Virus record (IMG/VR): IMGVR_UViG_3300027749_002344
Location: 1-27,356 of that record
Origin: a virus
Length of the DNA: 27,356 nt
Strand: one strand, 5' to 3'
Shown: positions 1 to 25,953 of the stretch, piece after piece
Position numbering within the stretch: the stretch's first letter is position 1
Layout of the letters: each line of letters opens with the position of its first letter
Notes under the pieces: model-generated
What the model saw: the letters and a program-made list of their open reading frames with translations, nothing else
Database searches by the model: none
Told to the model about the DNA's origin: nothing
Position numbers and translations under genes: made by a program

Positions 1-2186
1 AGGATAGATATGATATTTGAATCCTTAATGCGTTCAAACAAAATCTTCTTAGAAATCGGAACCCTAATCAATTCATCAATTTTTCTAGCTAGCGGTCTTG
101 CCCCCATCTTGCTATCATAGCCCTTAGCTGCCAAATATTCTATGACTGGTTCACTAAGATTAAGAGTAATGTTGTGCTTGTCTAATAAAGCTTTCTTGAT
201 ATCTTCAGCAAACTTAATAACAATCTTCTTTATAGAGAGTGTGTCAAGTTTCTTGAACTTGCAAATCATATCTAAGCGGTTTCTAAACTCAGGCTTAAAG
301 AAGTCCTTAAGCGCCTTATCATCTTCTCCGGTCTTTTCCATAGCACCAAAGCCAATATTGTTGCGCTCACTATCAGCACTACCCAAATTACTAGTTAGGA
401 TGATGATGCAATTCTTGCAACTAACTTCCTTGCCATTAGAACCTGTAATACGACCTTCATCTAACATCTGTAAGAAGATGTTAAAGATATCTGGATGAGC
501 TTTTTCCACCTCATCAAACAACATTACAGCGTGAGGATTCTTACTTAGATCGGACACCAGTCGGCCACCTTGAACTTGTGAGTCGCCAAAGCCAACATAT
601 CCCGGAGGAGGACCAATTAATGACGATACTGAGTGCTTTTCACTATACTCACTCATATCATACTTGAGTAAGGGCATATCTAAATTCTTGCTTAACAACT
701 TAACAAGTTCAGTCTTACCTGTGCCGGTTGGTCCTAAGAATAAGAAACTTGCTGTGGGTTTAGTTTCATTTCCAATTCCAGCAAACGAAACATATACACG
801 CTCAAGTACCTTCTCTACAGTTTCATCTTGACCATAAAGCTTGCTCTTGATATTAACATCAAGATTACTGATCTTATTAAGATTGTCACCTGCTAATTTG
901 TCAGCAGGAACTCCTGTGTACTTTTCAATTTGATCATAAATCAACTTCTTGTCAATAACAGCATCTTTATTACCAAGAACCTTTTGTTTGGCGCATGCCG
1001 CATCTAATAAATCAATAGACTTATCAGGGTTCTTTTTATCATGAATGTATCTGCTTGCGCCGTCGACGGCAGCCTTAATAGCTTCCTCTGTAATAGCGAC
1101 ACCATGAAAATCATTAAGACGAGAAGATATACCGCTAAGAATTCTAACCGTCGTTTCCGGTGAAGGCTCATCAATGCTGATCTTAAAGAACCTACGCATA
1201 AGCGCACGATCTTTTTCAAAGCTTTCATAGAACTCTTCCCAAGTTGTAGAAGCAATTACCTTTAAATCACCCTTAGTGATAGCAGGCTTCAGCATATTGG
1301 CAAAGTCAACTGCGCCGCTGTTACCAGCATTGCCAGCACCCTTCATAGTATGGGCTTCATCGATAAAGAGAATAGCATTTTTCTTAGTTCGCAACGCCTC
1401 TAGTACATGCTTTACCTTTTCTTCAAAGTCACCGCGATATCTAGAGCCAGCAAGTAATGAACCCACTTCTAACGAATATAATTCATATCCTTTTAAAAAG
1501 TCAGGTACTTCATCCTTAACAATAGCAAGCGCAATACCTTCAGCGATAGCAGTCTTACCAACACCGGGATCACCAACCATCAACACATTGGACTTGAATC
1601 GTTTTGCTAGCACATTGATAATATCGTCAATTTCTTGAATTCGACCAATAACTGGTTCAATCTTATCTTGTCTAGCCAATACAGTTAGATTAGTAGTATA
1701 TTCTTGCAAAATTTCATCAGCTTGGGTATCAGTTAGGTTAGTAGCATAGTCACCGCCCTTATAAGTTTTCTGCCAATGCTGTACGAACTCCATTTTGTTA
1801 ACGCCGTATTTCAACAAATAGTAATGAGCGTGGCTGTTACCCTCAGCACAAATGCTTAGGTAAAGATCAATAGTTAGTACTTGTTTCCGACCGGTAAACA
1901 GAACCTGCGTTACCGAACGGTTCATTACTCGTTCTAGCGTATTAGTTTTCTTAGGCTGCGTGTTTGGTTCTTTAGCTTCAATTGAATGTAGAGCATTAAG
2001 ATAGTGTGTCATTTCCCCAATCATTGCATCAGTTTCAACACCAAAAGATGTTAGACTCTTTTTAAAAGGAGAGAATGAGACTAATGCCAAACACAAGTGT
2101 TCTACTGTTACATACTGATGGTTTCTCTCCTTTGCAAGAGCAATGGACTGTTCAATGATGTTTTCAATTTCTGGGCTAGTCTGCAT
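1..2186 (-). CDS. clpA: ClpA-type AAA+ unfoldase (3' end outside window)
   Basis: Two-domain Hsp100 unfoldase, expected to unfold proteins with ATP and pass them to a ClpP peptidase. I translated it from ATG 2186 to the window edge without a stop (728 codons, C-terminus missing). Seen in order: a Clp N-terminal domain; D1 with Walker A GDPGVGKTA and Walker B LFIDEAH; D2 with Walker A GPTGTGKTE and Walker B VMLFDEVEKAH; the sensor region FRNRLD; and MGARPLAR near the C-terminus. There is no long coiled-coil M domain between D1 and D2, which argues for ClpA rather than ClpB. An IGF tripeptide sits where E. coli ClpA has its ClpP-binding IGL loop. The SD AGGA lies 5 nt before ATG. It directly follows dnaJ, so the two are probably co-transcribed. 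Family assignment is secure; partnership with host ClpP is inferred. Confidence 0.95.
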   Translation of the reverse strand, partial: MQTSPEIENIIEQSIALAKERNHQYVTVEHLCLALVSFSPFKKSLTSFGVETDAMIGEMTHYLNALHSIEAKEPNTQPKKTNTLERVMNRSVTQVLFTGRKQVLTIDLYLSICAEGNSHAHYYLLKYGVNKMEFVQHWQKTYKGGDYATNLTDTQADEILQEYTTNLTVLARQDKIEPVIGRIQEIDDIINVLAKRFKSNVLMVGDPGVGKTAIAEGIALAIVKDEVPDFLKGYELYSLEVGSLLAGSRYRGDFEEKVKHVLEALRTKKNAILFIDEAHTMKGAGNAGNSGAVDFANMLKPAITKGDLKVIASTTWEEFYESFEKDRALMRRFFKISIDEPSPETTVRILSGISSRLNDFHGVAITEEAIKAAVDGASRYIHDKKNPDKSIDLLDAACAKQKVLGNKDAVIDKKLIYDQIEKYTGVPADKLAGDNLNKISNLDVNIKSKLYGQDETVEKVLERVYVSFAGIGNETKPTASFLFLGPTGTGKTELVKLLSKNLDMPLLKYDMSEYSEKHSVSSLIGPPPGYVGFGDSQVQGGRLVSDLSKNPHAVMLFDEVEKAHPDIFNIFLQMLDEGRITGSNGKEVSCKNCIIILTSNLGSADSERNNIGFGAMEKTGEDDKALKDFFKPEFRNRLDMICKFKKLDTLSIKKIVIKFAEDIKKALLDKHNITLNLSEPVIEYLAAKGYDSKMGARPLARKIDELIRVPISKKILFERIKDSNIISI

Positions 2187-2202
2187 GTTTATCCTTATAC
2201 AC

Positions 2203-3018
2203 TTATTTATTTCTCAAATGTTCAATACTATCTATTATAGATTTATCTATAATATCAGGAATAATAGCGTTAAGCAAGATTATCTGGTCTCCGTACTGAT
2301 TAGAATTAAGTATGGGCATACCTTGCCCTGCTAATTTTAATTGATGGAATGGTTGTGTTTTGGGTTTGACAGTAACTTGCAATTTTTTACCCGAAATAGT
2401 AGTAAAATCAAAGCTAGTCCCAACAATCAAATCTAGTACTGATATGGTGTGAGTGCATACCAAGTTGTGATCTTGTCTATCAAATTTCAAATCAGGCATC
2501 ACTACAAATTCTACCATTAATATACCATTCTCAATGATATTCTCATATCTAATTTGGTTGCCAGTATGAACACCCTTAGGTATGTCCAAAGTAATAATAT
2601 TAGTTCCGGTATTAGTTTGCACTTTAAGCATTTGTTGTGAGCCATTGAATGCATCTAAAAGTGATACGTTGACCCTAGTTCTAAAAACTTGCTTTTGATT
2701 ACCTCGCTGGCCTGGTCCAAACGGACTATTTTGCCCAAATACCTGAGCAAAAATATCACTTACATCTACACCGTTTGTTGAGAAGGCAAACCCGTGAGGT
2801 CCACGATTCATACCTCCCATACCCGGAGGCGGAGGATTGTCGTACTGCTGCCGTTTTTGTGGGTCACTTAGTGTTTCATAAGCAGTTTGCAATTCTTGAA
2901 ATTTAGCAGTCTCACCGCCCTTGTCGGGATGATGCTGGCTAGCCAGCTTACGATATGCTTTTTTTATTTCTTCGGGCGTAGCTGTCTTGGCTATCCCTAA
3001 TGTCGAATAATAATCCAT
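2203..3018 (-). CDS. dnaJ: DnaJ/CbpA-type J-domain co-chaperone
   Basis: 271-aa J-protein expected to stimulate an Hsp70 (DnaK) ATPase and deliver substrates. The N-terminal J domain (about residues 1-62) has the essential HPD in QHHPDKGG. A Gly/Pro/Phe-rich linker follows (about 63-110), then a DnaJ C-terminal substrate-binding region containing KPKTQPFHQLKLAGQGMP. The four CxxCxGxG zinc-finger repeats of DnaJ itself are absent, so it resembles class II proteins such as CbpA. No phage DnaK is visible here, so the partner would be the host DnaK (inference). The ATG start is fixed because the J domain begins at residue 2. There is no SD; a consensus sigma70 promoter ends 5 nt upstream of ATG. 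The next gene downstream is the ClpA-like unfoldase. Confidence 0.94.
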   Translation of the reverse strand: MDYYSTLGIAKTATPEEIKKAYRKLASQHHPDKGGETAKFQELQTAYETLSDPQKRQQYDNPPPPGMGGMNRGPHGFAFSTNGVDVSDIFAQVFGQNSPFGPGQRGNQKQVFRTRVNVSLLDAFNGSQQMLKVQTNTGTNIITLDIPKGVHTGNQIRYENIIENGILMVEFVVMPDLKFDRQDHNLVCTHTISVLDLIVGTSFDFTTISGKKLQVTVKPKTQPFHQLKLAGQGMPILNSNQYGDQIILLNAIIPDIIDKSIIDSIEHLRNK

Positions 3019-3023
3019 GCGCT

Positions 3024-3052
3024 ATTATAACAAAGAATTGTTGATATGTCAA
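3024..3052 (-). promoter_or_regulatory. Consensus sigma70 promoter of dnaJ
   Basis: On the minus strand TTGACA (3047-3052) is followed by exactly 17 nt and TATAAT (3024-3029), a perfect match to the bacterial housekeeping consensus. The -10 ends 5 nt before the dnaJ ATG, so the usual start site falls on or within 1 nt of the A of ATG and the mRNA should be leaderless. The -35 begins right after the stop codon of the upstream putative holin gene. Confidence 0.85.
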
Positions 3053-3882: not shown

Positions 3883-4494
3883 TTACAATCCTGTTGCTGC
3901 GGCTGTTCCAGCTGGCATTGATCCGGCTGGACCAGGACCAAATGAGCCTGTCTGTTGACTATTATTACCGTGCATATGTTCTTTATCAAGATCCTCATCA
4001 TATGCATCCTGAATATCTGCTAAATCAATAGTTTGACCTGCCAAATCGATAGAACCTTCCTTAATATCATCCATTAAGTCCAGTGGCACTGTGATCTTAA
4101 CAAACCAAATCTTTCGTTGCTTCATTCTAGGATACTTAGTACCCGGAACAAAGTCATCATAATTAGTAATTTCGACAGGGACCTTGATATCCGATTTAGC
4201 AAATTCTACTTTGCAACCTAACGCAAGTAATCGTTTTGCTCCGCGCGGATCTGGCATTAGCTTATAAGGCCACATAAACACACAAGTAACATCATAGCGA
4301 CCTAAATTTGGTCCTTGAACTAGTTCACCTGATAACCAGTTATTATAGGCATATAAATCAGCGTCATCTAGTACCCGTTCAAAGTCCAGCAAAATGGACA
4401 TAGATCCATCGCTTGTATAAATTCCCTTTACGGTACTAATTATACTAACGTAGTCTACGCTGTTAAACCAATCATCTGCGACTTTATGAACCAT
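3883..4494 (-). CDS. Phage protein of unknown function (203 aa)
   Basis: I do not recognise a named family. Residues 1-170 look folded, with recurrent aromatic and basic motifs such as VFMWPYKLMPDPRGAKRLL and KQRKIWFVKITVPLDLMDDI. The last about 35 residues are low-complexity Gly/Pro/Ala/Ser (GSFGPGPAGSMPAGTAA), typical of virion-associated tails. There is no membrane segment. The ATG has no SD. A T4-late-like octamer GATAAATA lies 5 nt upstream, and a second identical octamer lies 50 bp further up. This leads the transcript through the 180-aa protein and putative holin. It is divergent from phoH. A late structural role is plausible but inferred. Confidence 0.87.
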   Translation of the reverse strand: MVHKVADDWFNSVDYVSIISTVKGIYTSDGSMSILLDFERVLDDADLYAYNNWLSGELVQGPNLGRYDVTCVFMWPYKLMPDPRGAKRLLALGCKVEFAKSDIKVPVEITNYDDFVPGTKYPRMKQRKIWFVKITVPLDLMDDIKEGSIDLAGQTIDLADIQDAYDEDLDKEHMHGNNSQQTGSFGPGPAGSMPAGTAAATGL

Positions 4495-4499
4495 ACTAG

Positions 4500-4507
4500 T
4501 ATTTATC
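4500..4507 (-). promoter_or_regulatory. Late-type octamer GATAAATA, 5 nt from start
   Basis: GATAAATA on the minus strand differs from the T4 late consensus TATAAATA at one position. Only 5 nt (CTAGT) separate it from ATG 4494, which predicts a leaderless transcript. No SD is present upstream. Confidence 0.6.
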
Positions 4508-5696: not shown

Positions 5697-6629
5697 TTAT
5701 AAAGTAGTAAGTTCAACTAGCAACGCTGCTAGGGCTATTTCAGGAATACCAACTAATGGAAGATTTGCTAGACCATTCCTGATATAAATGATCGCTGCAT
5801 CTCGCTTTTGATTTGTATCACCCCACAGGTCTAGATTATCATATGTCCATTTGCAAACATCTTCAATCCTAGTAGGATACAACGAGATATACTGCATCAA
5901 CTGCTTTCTACCGTCAGCTATATTACCGTTCTTGAATAGATCAGTAGCTTGGATTAATAGATCATCTTCACTTTGACCTTCTTTAGCGATAGGCACTAGC
6001 TTGCCAGAAGTACTAGCCTGTTGTAACCTATTTAAACATTTTCTAAGATCAGGATACGTAGCACGAACATATGTGTCAAGTACATCCAAATCAAAATCAA
6101 CATTTTCAGTTGCAAGAACCGTTGCCGCTCTAGCAGTAAAATCTACATGATCAGTCTTTGTGATATGAAATTCATGGCAGCGAGACTTAAGTGCTGGAAT
6201 AATCTTATGCTGATAATTGCAAGTTAGAATGTAACGCACAGTAGAATGATACGCTTCCATATCATTTCTAAGTGCGGCTTGCGATGGCTGAGTTAAATAA
6301 TCAGCCTCATCTAATAGAACAACTTTAAACTTGCCAAACGGTATAGTCTGCACAAAGCTGTTGATCTTAGTTCTTAGATTTTCAATACCATTCTCACGAC
6401 TAGCGTTGATCTCTAGGAGATCCCACTCTTCAATCGATAGTTCATTAATCAATACTTTGGCTAGAGTAGTTTTGCCAGTACCGGGATCACCAGATAATAA
6501 CAAATGAGGAATGGTTTCATTCTTGATCCACCCTTCGACTGTTTCTCGCTGTGTTTGATCTACAAAAACATATTCGTTAACGGTCTTAGGGCGGTACGCT
6601 TCAACCCAAAGTTTATTACTAAGATTCAT
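5697..6629 (-). CDS. gp44: Clamp loader AAA+ subunit (T4 gp44-like)
   Basis: 310-aa AAA+ ATPase of the RFC/gp44 class, which with a small subunit (gp62 in T4) loads the sliding clamp at primer ends. Visible motifs are LWVEAYRPKTVNEYVF at the N-terminus, Walker A GDPGTGKTT (about residue 47), Walker B VVLLDEAD (about 105), sensor 1 LTCNYQHKI and the SRC motif KSRCHEF (about 150). A C-terminal helical collar domain follows. Length is close to T4 gp44 (319 aa). ATG overlaps the stop codon of the GroES-like gene by one base (TAATG), with AAGG 8 nt upstream, which implies translational coupling. No gp62 or gp45 homologue is recognisable in the window. Confidence 0.95.
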   Translation of the reverse strand: MNLSNKLWVEAYRPKTVNEYVFVDQTQRETVEGWIKNETIPHLLLSGDPGTGKTTLAKVLINELSIEEWDLLEINASRENGIENLRTKINSFVQTIPFGKFKVVLLDEADYLTQPSQAALRNDMEAYHSTVRYILTCNYQHKIIPALKSRCHEFHITKTDHVDFTARAATVLATENVDFDLDVLDTYVRATYPDLRKCLNRLQQASTSGKLVPIAKEGQSEDDLLIQATDLFKNGNIADGRKQLMQYISLYPTRIEDVCKWTYDNLDLWGDTNQKRDAAIIYIRNGLANLPLVGIPEIALAALLVELTTL

Positions 6630-6991
6630 TAAATTACCTTATCGCTCATTGTTTCATCAAAAACAGGTTCATCACTAGTAGCTAAAATGTCTTTTGGATC
6701 AACTTTACGAATAATTTTTTCGCCAGTTTCATCTTCAACAAGCAAGCCTCTAGTCCATCTACCATGAGATACTAACACGTATTCGCCTACTTTGATATGT
6801 GTTTGGGCAGGTCCAACCGCATAGACTTTAGCCCAGCGAGGTCTAATACCCGAACTCTTCATATCATCATATGGAATAATGATACCTGATCGCGTAATAC
6901 GTTCATCAAAGTCCATGTCAGTTACGACTACTGTATCATTGATTGGTCTAATCGACTTGAACTTAATAACTGTAAAATTTTGTGTTGCCAT
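6629..6991 (-). CDS. groES: GroES-like co-chaperonin (T4 gp31 role)
   Basis: 120-aa protein of the Cpn10 class. It would cap the host GroEL and help fold large capsid proteins, as gp31 does for T4. Evidence: the beta-barrel pattern SIRPINDTVVV at the start, the stretch TRSGIIIPYDDMKSSG in the mobile-loop position, AKVYAVGP and VKVGEYVLVS typical of GroES, and a C-terminal acidic extension. It is longer than bacterial GroES (about 97 aa) and closer to gp31 (111 aa). ATG overlaps the preceding gene's stop by one base (TAATG). The next gene is the clamp loader, also overlapped by one base. The GroES assignment is good; use with host GroEL is inferred. Confidence 0.85.
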   Translation of the reverse strand: MATQNFTVIKFKSIRPINDTVVVTDMDFDERITRSGIIIPYDDMKSSGIRPRWAKVYAVGPAQTHIKVGEYVLVSHGRWTRGLLVEDETGEKIIRKVDPKDILATSDEPVFDETMSDKVI

Positions 6992-7364: not shown

Positions 7365-7871
7365 TTATTTTAAAAACTCTTCAATGGGAAGATCATAATG
7401 TAAACTATTTATTCTGTGGATCCCTATCAGATAAAGAACAAAACTAGCTACTGAACTACCTCTACCCACCCCCCAAACTACATTGTTTTTACGCATAATA
7501 TCTACCAAATACTTTAAGTATTTTAATAGAGTAAACATGTTGCGTTCTTGATACATTAACAGTTCTTGACCAGCACGTTGTAACTCATTATCATCCTTAC
7601 ACTGTTCCAGTACCCATTTAGCAATATCCATATCTAGATACTCTTTAGGCATGAACCAACTGTTTTGTAATTGTTTATCAAATTGAGATTTAGAAATGTC
7701 AGATAATTTGTATTCTATTAATTTGGGAATATTCTCTAGTTCTAAGTCACTGTTAAACTTGATTGGTTTTTCTACTAATACATTCTCAAGTTTTATTTCT
7801 GGATTAGTATAATACAGATTTACTAAATCTGTTTCATCAAATATCATTTGACCATACGAATCTTTTCTCAT
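7365..7871 (-). CDS. Stand-alone DNA polymerase III alpha-like fragment
   Basis: 168-aa protein whose C-terminus (about residues 131-168) matches the conserved early palm region of bacterial PolIII alpha: VWGVGRGSSVASFVLYLIGI, then LHYDLPIEEFL, comparable to GPGRGSAAGSLVAY...YDLLFERFLNPER in DnaE. The protein ends right there, before the catalytic PDxDxD aspartates, and it lacks the PHP domain. It therefore cannot be a polymerase by itself. It may bind nucleotide or DNA, or interfere with or contact a replisome partner (inference). The ATG has no SD. A TTGACA-17-TATACT promoter ends 6 nt upstream, so the mRNA is probably leaderless. It heads the replication/chaperone unit down to 5404. No frameshift or continuing ORF was found downstream, so it looks like an intact short gene. 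Confidence 0.8.
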   Translation of the reverse strand: MRKDSYGQMIFDETDLVNLYYTNPEIKLENVLVEKPIKFNSDLELENIPKLIEYKLSDISKSQFDKQLQNSWFMPKEYLDMDIAKWVLEQCKDDNELQRAGQELLMYQERNMFTLLKYLKYLVDIMRKNNVVWGVGRGSSVASFVLYLIGIHRINSLHYDLPIEEFLK

Positions 7872-7877
7872 ACATAA

Positions 7878-7906
7878 AGTATAATACTATTCTTTAGCTT
7901 TGTCAA
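7878..7906 (-). promoter_or_regulatory. Strong sigma70-like promoter of the PolIII-alpha-like gene
   Basis: TTGACA (7901-7906), a 17-nt spacer, and TATACT (7878-7883) on the minus strand: 11 of 12 consensus bases. The -10 ends 6 nt before ATG 7871, which places the expected start site on the A of ATG. The -35 lies inside the last codons of the upstream 185-aa gene. Confidence 0.8.
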
Positions 7907-20055: not shown

Positions 20056-20060
20056 AACAC

Positions 20061-20068
20061 TATTTATG
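20061..20068 (-). promoter_or_regulatory. Late-type octamer CATAAATA, 5 nt from start
   Basis: It differs from the T4 late octamer TATAAATA at only the first base. GTGTT (5 nt) separates it from ATG 20055 and no SD is present, which predicts a leaderless late mRNA. Confidence 0.62.
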
Positions 20069-25928: not shown

Positions 25929-25942
25929 GACCTTCGAAGGTC
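25929..25942. repeat. 14-bp perfect palindrome upstream of the HNH-like gene
   Basis: GACCTTCGAAGGTC is fully self-complementary and overlaps the first two bases of the TCTAAATA element. It could be a dimeric protein site or form a small hairpin. It lies between two divergent late-type elements. Confidence 0.55.
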
Positions 25943-25948
25943 TAAATA
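25941..25948 (+). promoter_or_regulatory. Late-type element TCTAAATA, 5 nt from start
   Basis: It extends to CTAAATAC as at 9745 and 22182. CATGT (5 nt) separates it from ATG 25954 and no SD is visible at usable spacing, so a leaderless mRNA is predicted. Confidence 0.5.
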
Positions 25949-25953
25949 CATGT

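Follow-up and report, generated by a model that had tools for sequence, protein, structure and literature searches.

Jumbo phages that carry their own Clp and chaperone genes have been described before. A set reported in 2018 for Agrobacterium phage Atu_ph07 includes ClpA (gp292), DnaJ (gp293), ClpP (gp676), ClpS (gp708), ClpX (gp2) and ClpB (gp492) (PMC6102473). The window analyzed here, a virus record of 27,356 bases taken at its whole length, comes from a T4-related jumbo phage of the wider Atu_ph07/PA5oct/RaK2 group, of which it covers the tail and virion region, and its proteins are new members of this described jumbo-phage Clp/chaperone set (PMC6102473; PMC7824862). Like the window, Atu_ph07 has DnaJ immediately upstream of ClpA and the IGF loop, and like long relatives of the window it has its own ClpP, ClpS and ClpX, but its ClpA is 40% identical to that of the window, its dnaJ has no leaderless-spaced promoter and its ClpS pocket is changed relative to the window’s clade (N34D, M40L, H66E). 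Pseudomonas phage PA5oct (Wroclawvirus) repeats the gene order of the window, from a chaperonin through a clamp-loader-sized ORF, an opposite-strand PhoH and virion genes to DnaJ and ClpA, and it encodes its own ClpP and ClpS; unlike the window, it has a ClpA that is 37% identical and a dnaJ without a leaderless-spaced promoter, and it shows no excess of such promoters, either of the sigma-70 or of the late class. The phage set also resembles the E. coli ClpAPS protease in domain order, pore loops, docking loop and the types of adaptor and peptidase.

The lambda cI gene is a leaderless gene with a -10 box adjacent to the ORF. Leaderless genes of Deinococcus-Thermus, like the J-protein gene of the window, have a -10 box a few nucleotides before the start codon and no ribosome site (PMC12340547); unlike these cases, the present one is found in a lytic-type jumbo phage, comprises both a sigma-70 and a T4-type late class of promoter and includes a complete -35 box. 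According to a 2017 paper (PMC5312081), phage mRNAs in general often lack a leader, but we found no earlier report of this clade’s leaderless promoter geometry in the open-access literature searched. This conserved geometry seems to be the new part, the Clp/chaperone set itself having already been described.

Clp and chaperone genes of the window

The features discussed below are all on the (-) strand of the window:

3..2186, ClpA-like two-ring AAA+ unfoldase, its C-terminus cut by the contig end (PHROG 4871, TIGR02639)
348..356, IGF tripeptide (residues 611-613 of ClpA), at the position of the ClpP-docking IGL loop of E. coli ClpA
2203..3018, class II J-protein (HPD at 2923-2931), separated by 16 nt from ClpA downstream
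3024..3052, sigma-70 promoter of the J-ClpA operon, TTGACA-17-TATAAT, with 5 nt between the -10 box and the J ATG
4500..4507, T4-type late box GATAAATA, 5 nt ahead of the start codon (ATG at 4494) of the virion-protein gene 3883-4494
6629..6991, GroES/T4 gp31-like co-chaperonin (Pfam Cpn10 1.2e-7; PHROG 931 “head morphogenesis” 1.5e-13)
7878..7906, a further sigma-70 promoter with leaderless spacing, TTGACA-17-TATACT, ahead of the gene 7365-7871 for a DNA-polymerase fragment and found in 7/7 relatives

The ClpA-like ORF encodes 728 aa up to the contig end, where it is cut off; in long relatives the open ClpA frame measures 753-764 aa, so that some 30 residues are lacking at the C-terminus. E. 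coli ClpA aligns with it from end to end (phmmer, E 8e-174), with 47% identity in D1, 43% in D2 and 27% in the N-domain, which is present with a weak Pfam Clp_N match. Both rings have intact Walker A/B motifs, pore loops (KYR-type and GYVG) and arginine fingers, and the D2-small domain is present as well. The match to PHROG 4871 (a jumbo-phage “ATP-dependent protease”) reaches 1.1e-230 over profile positions 8-743 of 764. TIGR02639, the NCBIfam ClpA equivalog, is the best family, yet this truncated protein scores 765.9 bits against a 993-bit cut-off, and in view of that score it is best named ClpA-like, PHROG 4871.

The J-protein (271 aa) has a J domain with HPD and a DnaJ_C domain but no zinc finger, which makes it class II (type B), and Pfam, PHROG and NCBIfam concur on both this and the ClpA-like assignment. 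The two genes are same-strand neighbors in 166/166 loci where both were detected and are also paired in the named phages Atu_ph07, Phosso (where a peptide deformylase gene lies between them) and PA5oct; the pairing is old and stable. A sequence-only reading of the window had described a class II J-protein ahead of ClpA under a strong promoter, with a GroES-like protein nearby, and all of this was borne out; absent from that reading were the truncation of ClpA by the contig end and the position of the -10 box just 5 nt before the J start.

Docking loop and phage-encoded partners

Loop residues 610-628 of E. coli ClpA dock into clefts of ClpP (PMC9663308). In our alignment ERNNIGFG of the window protein pairs with ERKSIGLI of E. 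coli ClpA, confirming the earlier placement of the IGF tripeptide at the IGL position, so that the [LIV]-G-[FL] ClpP-docking loop of D2 is present as IGF. Among 127 distinct ClpA relatives (2 of them too truncated to cover the tripeptide) we counted IGF in 119, VGF in 2, IGV in 2, IGY in 1 and MNM in 1. Relatives lacking IGF or IGL, which the sequence-only reading had said would count against docking, thus do exist, but they are few and distant, and at 70% identity or more to the window the loop is IGF in 75/75.

The diverged loops belong to RaK2 (IGV), Munch (MNM), Vibrio 2.275 (IGV) and SCTP-2 (IGY). The ClpPs of these phages are 35-49% identical to E. coli ClpP and have altered cleft residues (at positions that we take, from E. 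coli ClpP, to form the cleft), whereas those of the IGF phages are 60-64% identical, except PA5oct (50%). This suggests that ClpA loop and ClpP cleft diverge together, as expected for a loop fitted to the phage’s own ClpP, in a comparison of four phages that are related to each other.

Phage-encoded partners are the rule among the 20 long relatives searched (15 records and then five further named phages). Both ClpP and ClpS were found in 17 of them (12/15, then 5/5), the three records without them being contigs of 139-181 kb, and the S-H-D catalytic triad is intact in 17/17 phage ClpPs. ClpX scored above cut-off in 11/12 relatives tested and is usually clustered with ClpS and ClpP; in one relative, G001, clpX, hsp20, clpS and clpP follow in this order within 6 kb. 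The N-degron pocket residues N34, D35, T38, M40 and H66 of ClpS are retained in 10 IMG/VR relatives and Phosso, with D, N or E at position 36 in the window’s clade, and several pocket residues are changed in Atu_ph07, RaK2 and Munch. Distances between ClpA proteins correlate with those of ClpS (r=0.94) and of ClpP (r=0.70), with a Mantel p of 0.0001 in both cases (n=15); the ClpA/ClpS correlation would fit co-inherited partners, though shared descent alone would produce both correlations. The window is a 27-kb fragment, and we therefore infer its phage’s own ClpP and ClpS from these relatives.

The Hsp70 and Hsp60 partners are a different matter. GroEL was found in 0/15 long relatives and DnaK in only 1/15 (G008), so that the J-protein and Hsp10 would need the DnaK and GroEL of the host. 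The relatives would thus bring a complete ClpA/X-P-S system, with Hsp70 and Hsp60 supplied by the host. Two further candidate partners were dropped: the leucyl/phenylalanyl-tRNA transferase Aat, as a phage-borne N-degron writer, is absent from 12/12 relatives, and peptide deformylase, as a constant partner, occurs in only 7/12.

Several other genes were noted in passing. The full-length DnaK gene of G008 (L180) adjoins the phage ClpS gene. A second, divergent ClpP-like protein accompanies the canonical ClpP in two phages (L196 6711-7293 in G009; PV764938.1 115158-115679). TonB-dependent receptor genes lie inside two jumbo-phage contigs (L187 9254-11629 in G001; L330 in G004), in G001 directly adjoining the phage clpP, and are either acquired receptors or the product of an assembly join.

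Promoters adjacent to start codons

The J-ClpA promoter agrees with the sigma-70 consensus at 12/12 positions and has TG before the -10 box. The usual start point of transcription lies some 7 nt beyond the -10 box. With the box ending 5 nt before the ATG, the J transcript should begin at or next to the A of the AUG and so be leaderless. A promoter scoring at least 9/12, with its -10 box ending 5-7 nt before the ATG, precedes the J gene in 75/78 relatives with a usable start (22 at 5 nt, 49 at 6 and 4 at 7), and a Shine-Dalgarno-like 4-mer precedes it in 1/78. The J gene thus has the sequence marks of a leaderless gene (a -10 box about 6 nt before the ATG and no Shine-Dalgarno), and from the conserved promoter sequence the J-ClpA mRNA should be leaderless.

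At neighboring genes the same promoter and spacing occur at ClpA in 0/44, at virion genes in 0/67 and 1/70, at GroES in 0/34 and at the clamp loader in 8/54; at the DNA-polymerase fragment gene they occur in 7/7. Over the same loci 85/1161 ORF starts qualify, most of them J genes, against a background of about 1% of other ORF starts. The spacing was also considered for the other Clp genes and rejected: in the sequences inspected, the regions upstream of clpP and hsp20 are purine-rich and Shine-Dalgarno-like, and those of clpS and clpX are mixed.

Besides the DNA-polymerase fragment genes, primase-like and PD-(D/E)XK nuclease-like genes have leaderless-spaced sigma-70 promoters. Because the promoter class of J-ClpA is common to replication genes, and from this company of primase-, nuclease- and polymerase-like genes, J-ClpA is probably expressed early.

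A similar geometry is seen with late promoters. The GATAAATA box lies 4-6 nt from the ATG of homologues of the virion gene 3883-4494 in 65/70 relatives. Within the window, T4-type late boxes (7/8) at 4500-4507, 20060-20067 and 25942-25949 stand 5 nt before the starts 4494, 20055 and 25954, which suggests that the three genes behind them may have leaderless late mRNAs. Across whole genomes, the word ATAAATA placed 4-5 nt ahead of an ORF that starts with ATG was counted 16 times in G003, 22 in G002 and 23 in G001 (the means for permuted words are 0.7-1.7) and twice in PA5oct; no such case appeared in the parts read of Atu_ph07 (to 400 kb), RaK2 and T4 (50 kb). As far as they were read, these four phages contradict the idea that leaderless spacing is a habit of all T4-like phages. 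A chance origin of the spacing is ruled out by the neighboring genes (0-15%), the other ORF starts and the permuted late-box words. Matches to Gp55 were found in G001, G003 and Atu_ph07 (E 1e-5 to 1e-6) and were weak in G002 and PA5oct.

Possible roles of the J-ClpA operon

The reading we favor, and consider reasonably probable, is that J-ClpA is an early leaderless sigma-70 operon whose ClpA serves a phage-encoded ClpAPS protease, while the J-protein and Hsp10 work with host partners. Host RNA polymerase with sigma-70 would transcribe the two genes from a near-consensus promoter, placed so near the first of them that the message starts at the J start codon, and ClpA would be translated further down that message from its own ribosome site. 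The ClpA hexamer would then dock through IGF on a ClpP tetradecamer, most likely the phage’s own (to judge from co-occurrence and motifs), and substrates delivered by phage ClpS, or taken directly, would be degraded by the resulting protease. Since the phage partners are absent, the J-protein would pass clients to host DnaK and Hsp10 would work with host GroEL. An early remodeling of the infected-cell proteome is a more likely task for the operon than a part in virion assembly.

The sequence-only reading had proposed instead a proteostasis takeover that could redirect host ClpP, DnaK and GroEL. Part of it stands, namely a docking-competent ClpA with its J-protein and the dependence on host DnaK and GroEL, but the part concerning ClpP is weakened. 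That phage ClpA docks on host ClpP and turns it to new substrates is possible, given that IGF is a canonical ClpP-binding tripeptide (IGF in E. coli ClpX, IGL in ClpA) that fits bacterial ClpP and does not vary among close relatives; the similarity of the clade’s own enzymes to E. coli ClpP likewise means that the host enzyme might dock. It is not the simplest reading, however, and we hold it unlikely, since all long relatives with matches carry both ClpP and ClpS of their own, and since Salmonella phage Munch has MNM and RaK2 has IGV despite ordinary ClpP in their hosts. In place of a vague takeover of host ClpP there is now a testable proposal: a phage unfoldase, peptidase and N-degron adaptor inherited together.

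ClpA and the J-protein might also act as chaperones without proteolysis, in virion assembly, in remodeling of replication complexes or in disaggregation with host DnaK. Iyer et al. (2021) suggested that phage ClpA may act as a translocase or in assembly (PMC7824862), the pairing resembles the DnaK/Hsp100 disaggregation pair, and the operon sits between virion genes, a position compatible with assembly. Such a role would leave unexplained why the ClpP-docking loop is retained in 119/127 relatives and why every record of complete scale has a ClpP gene as well; the promoter, moreover, is of the host sigma-70 type while the adjacent virion gene uses a late box. We rate this reading as rather unlikely. 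Least probable, in our estimate, is general stress relief, in which the set would remove aggregates and prevent host death before lysis, a role already suggested for Atu_ph07 (PMC6102473): ClpX, Hsp20, ClpS, ClpP, DnaJ, Hsp10 and sometimes DnaK together do resemble a heat-shock set, but stress relief alone accounts for neither the early-class promoter nor the N-degron adaptor.

A broader and more tentative idea is that the clade runs a two-class leaderless program, in which early sigma-70 and T4-type late mRNAs both start at AUG, J-ClpA being an early member; phage messages might in this way exploit a ribosome state not used by leadered host messages, or evade a control to which those are subject. 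The promoter spacing itself predicts leaderless phage mRNAs from two promoter classes across an abundant, uncultured jumbo-phage clade, a prediction that bears on gene calling in these phages and on how their early and late genes are interpreted.

Two genes behind leaderless-spaced sigma-70 promoters have features of their own. The gene 7365-7871(-) encodes a 168-aa fragment resembling DNA polymerase III alpha (PHROG 11127); it stops near the point where the catalytic aspartates would follow and, with its own promoter, suggests a split polymerase. In G003 (L219 13975-14436) the promoter precedes an HD-domain protein, perhaps a (p)ppGpp hydrolase, whose Pfam HD_4 match is weak and under the cut-off.
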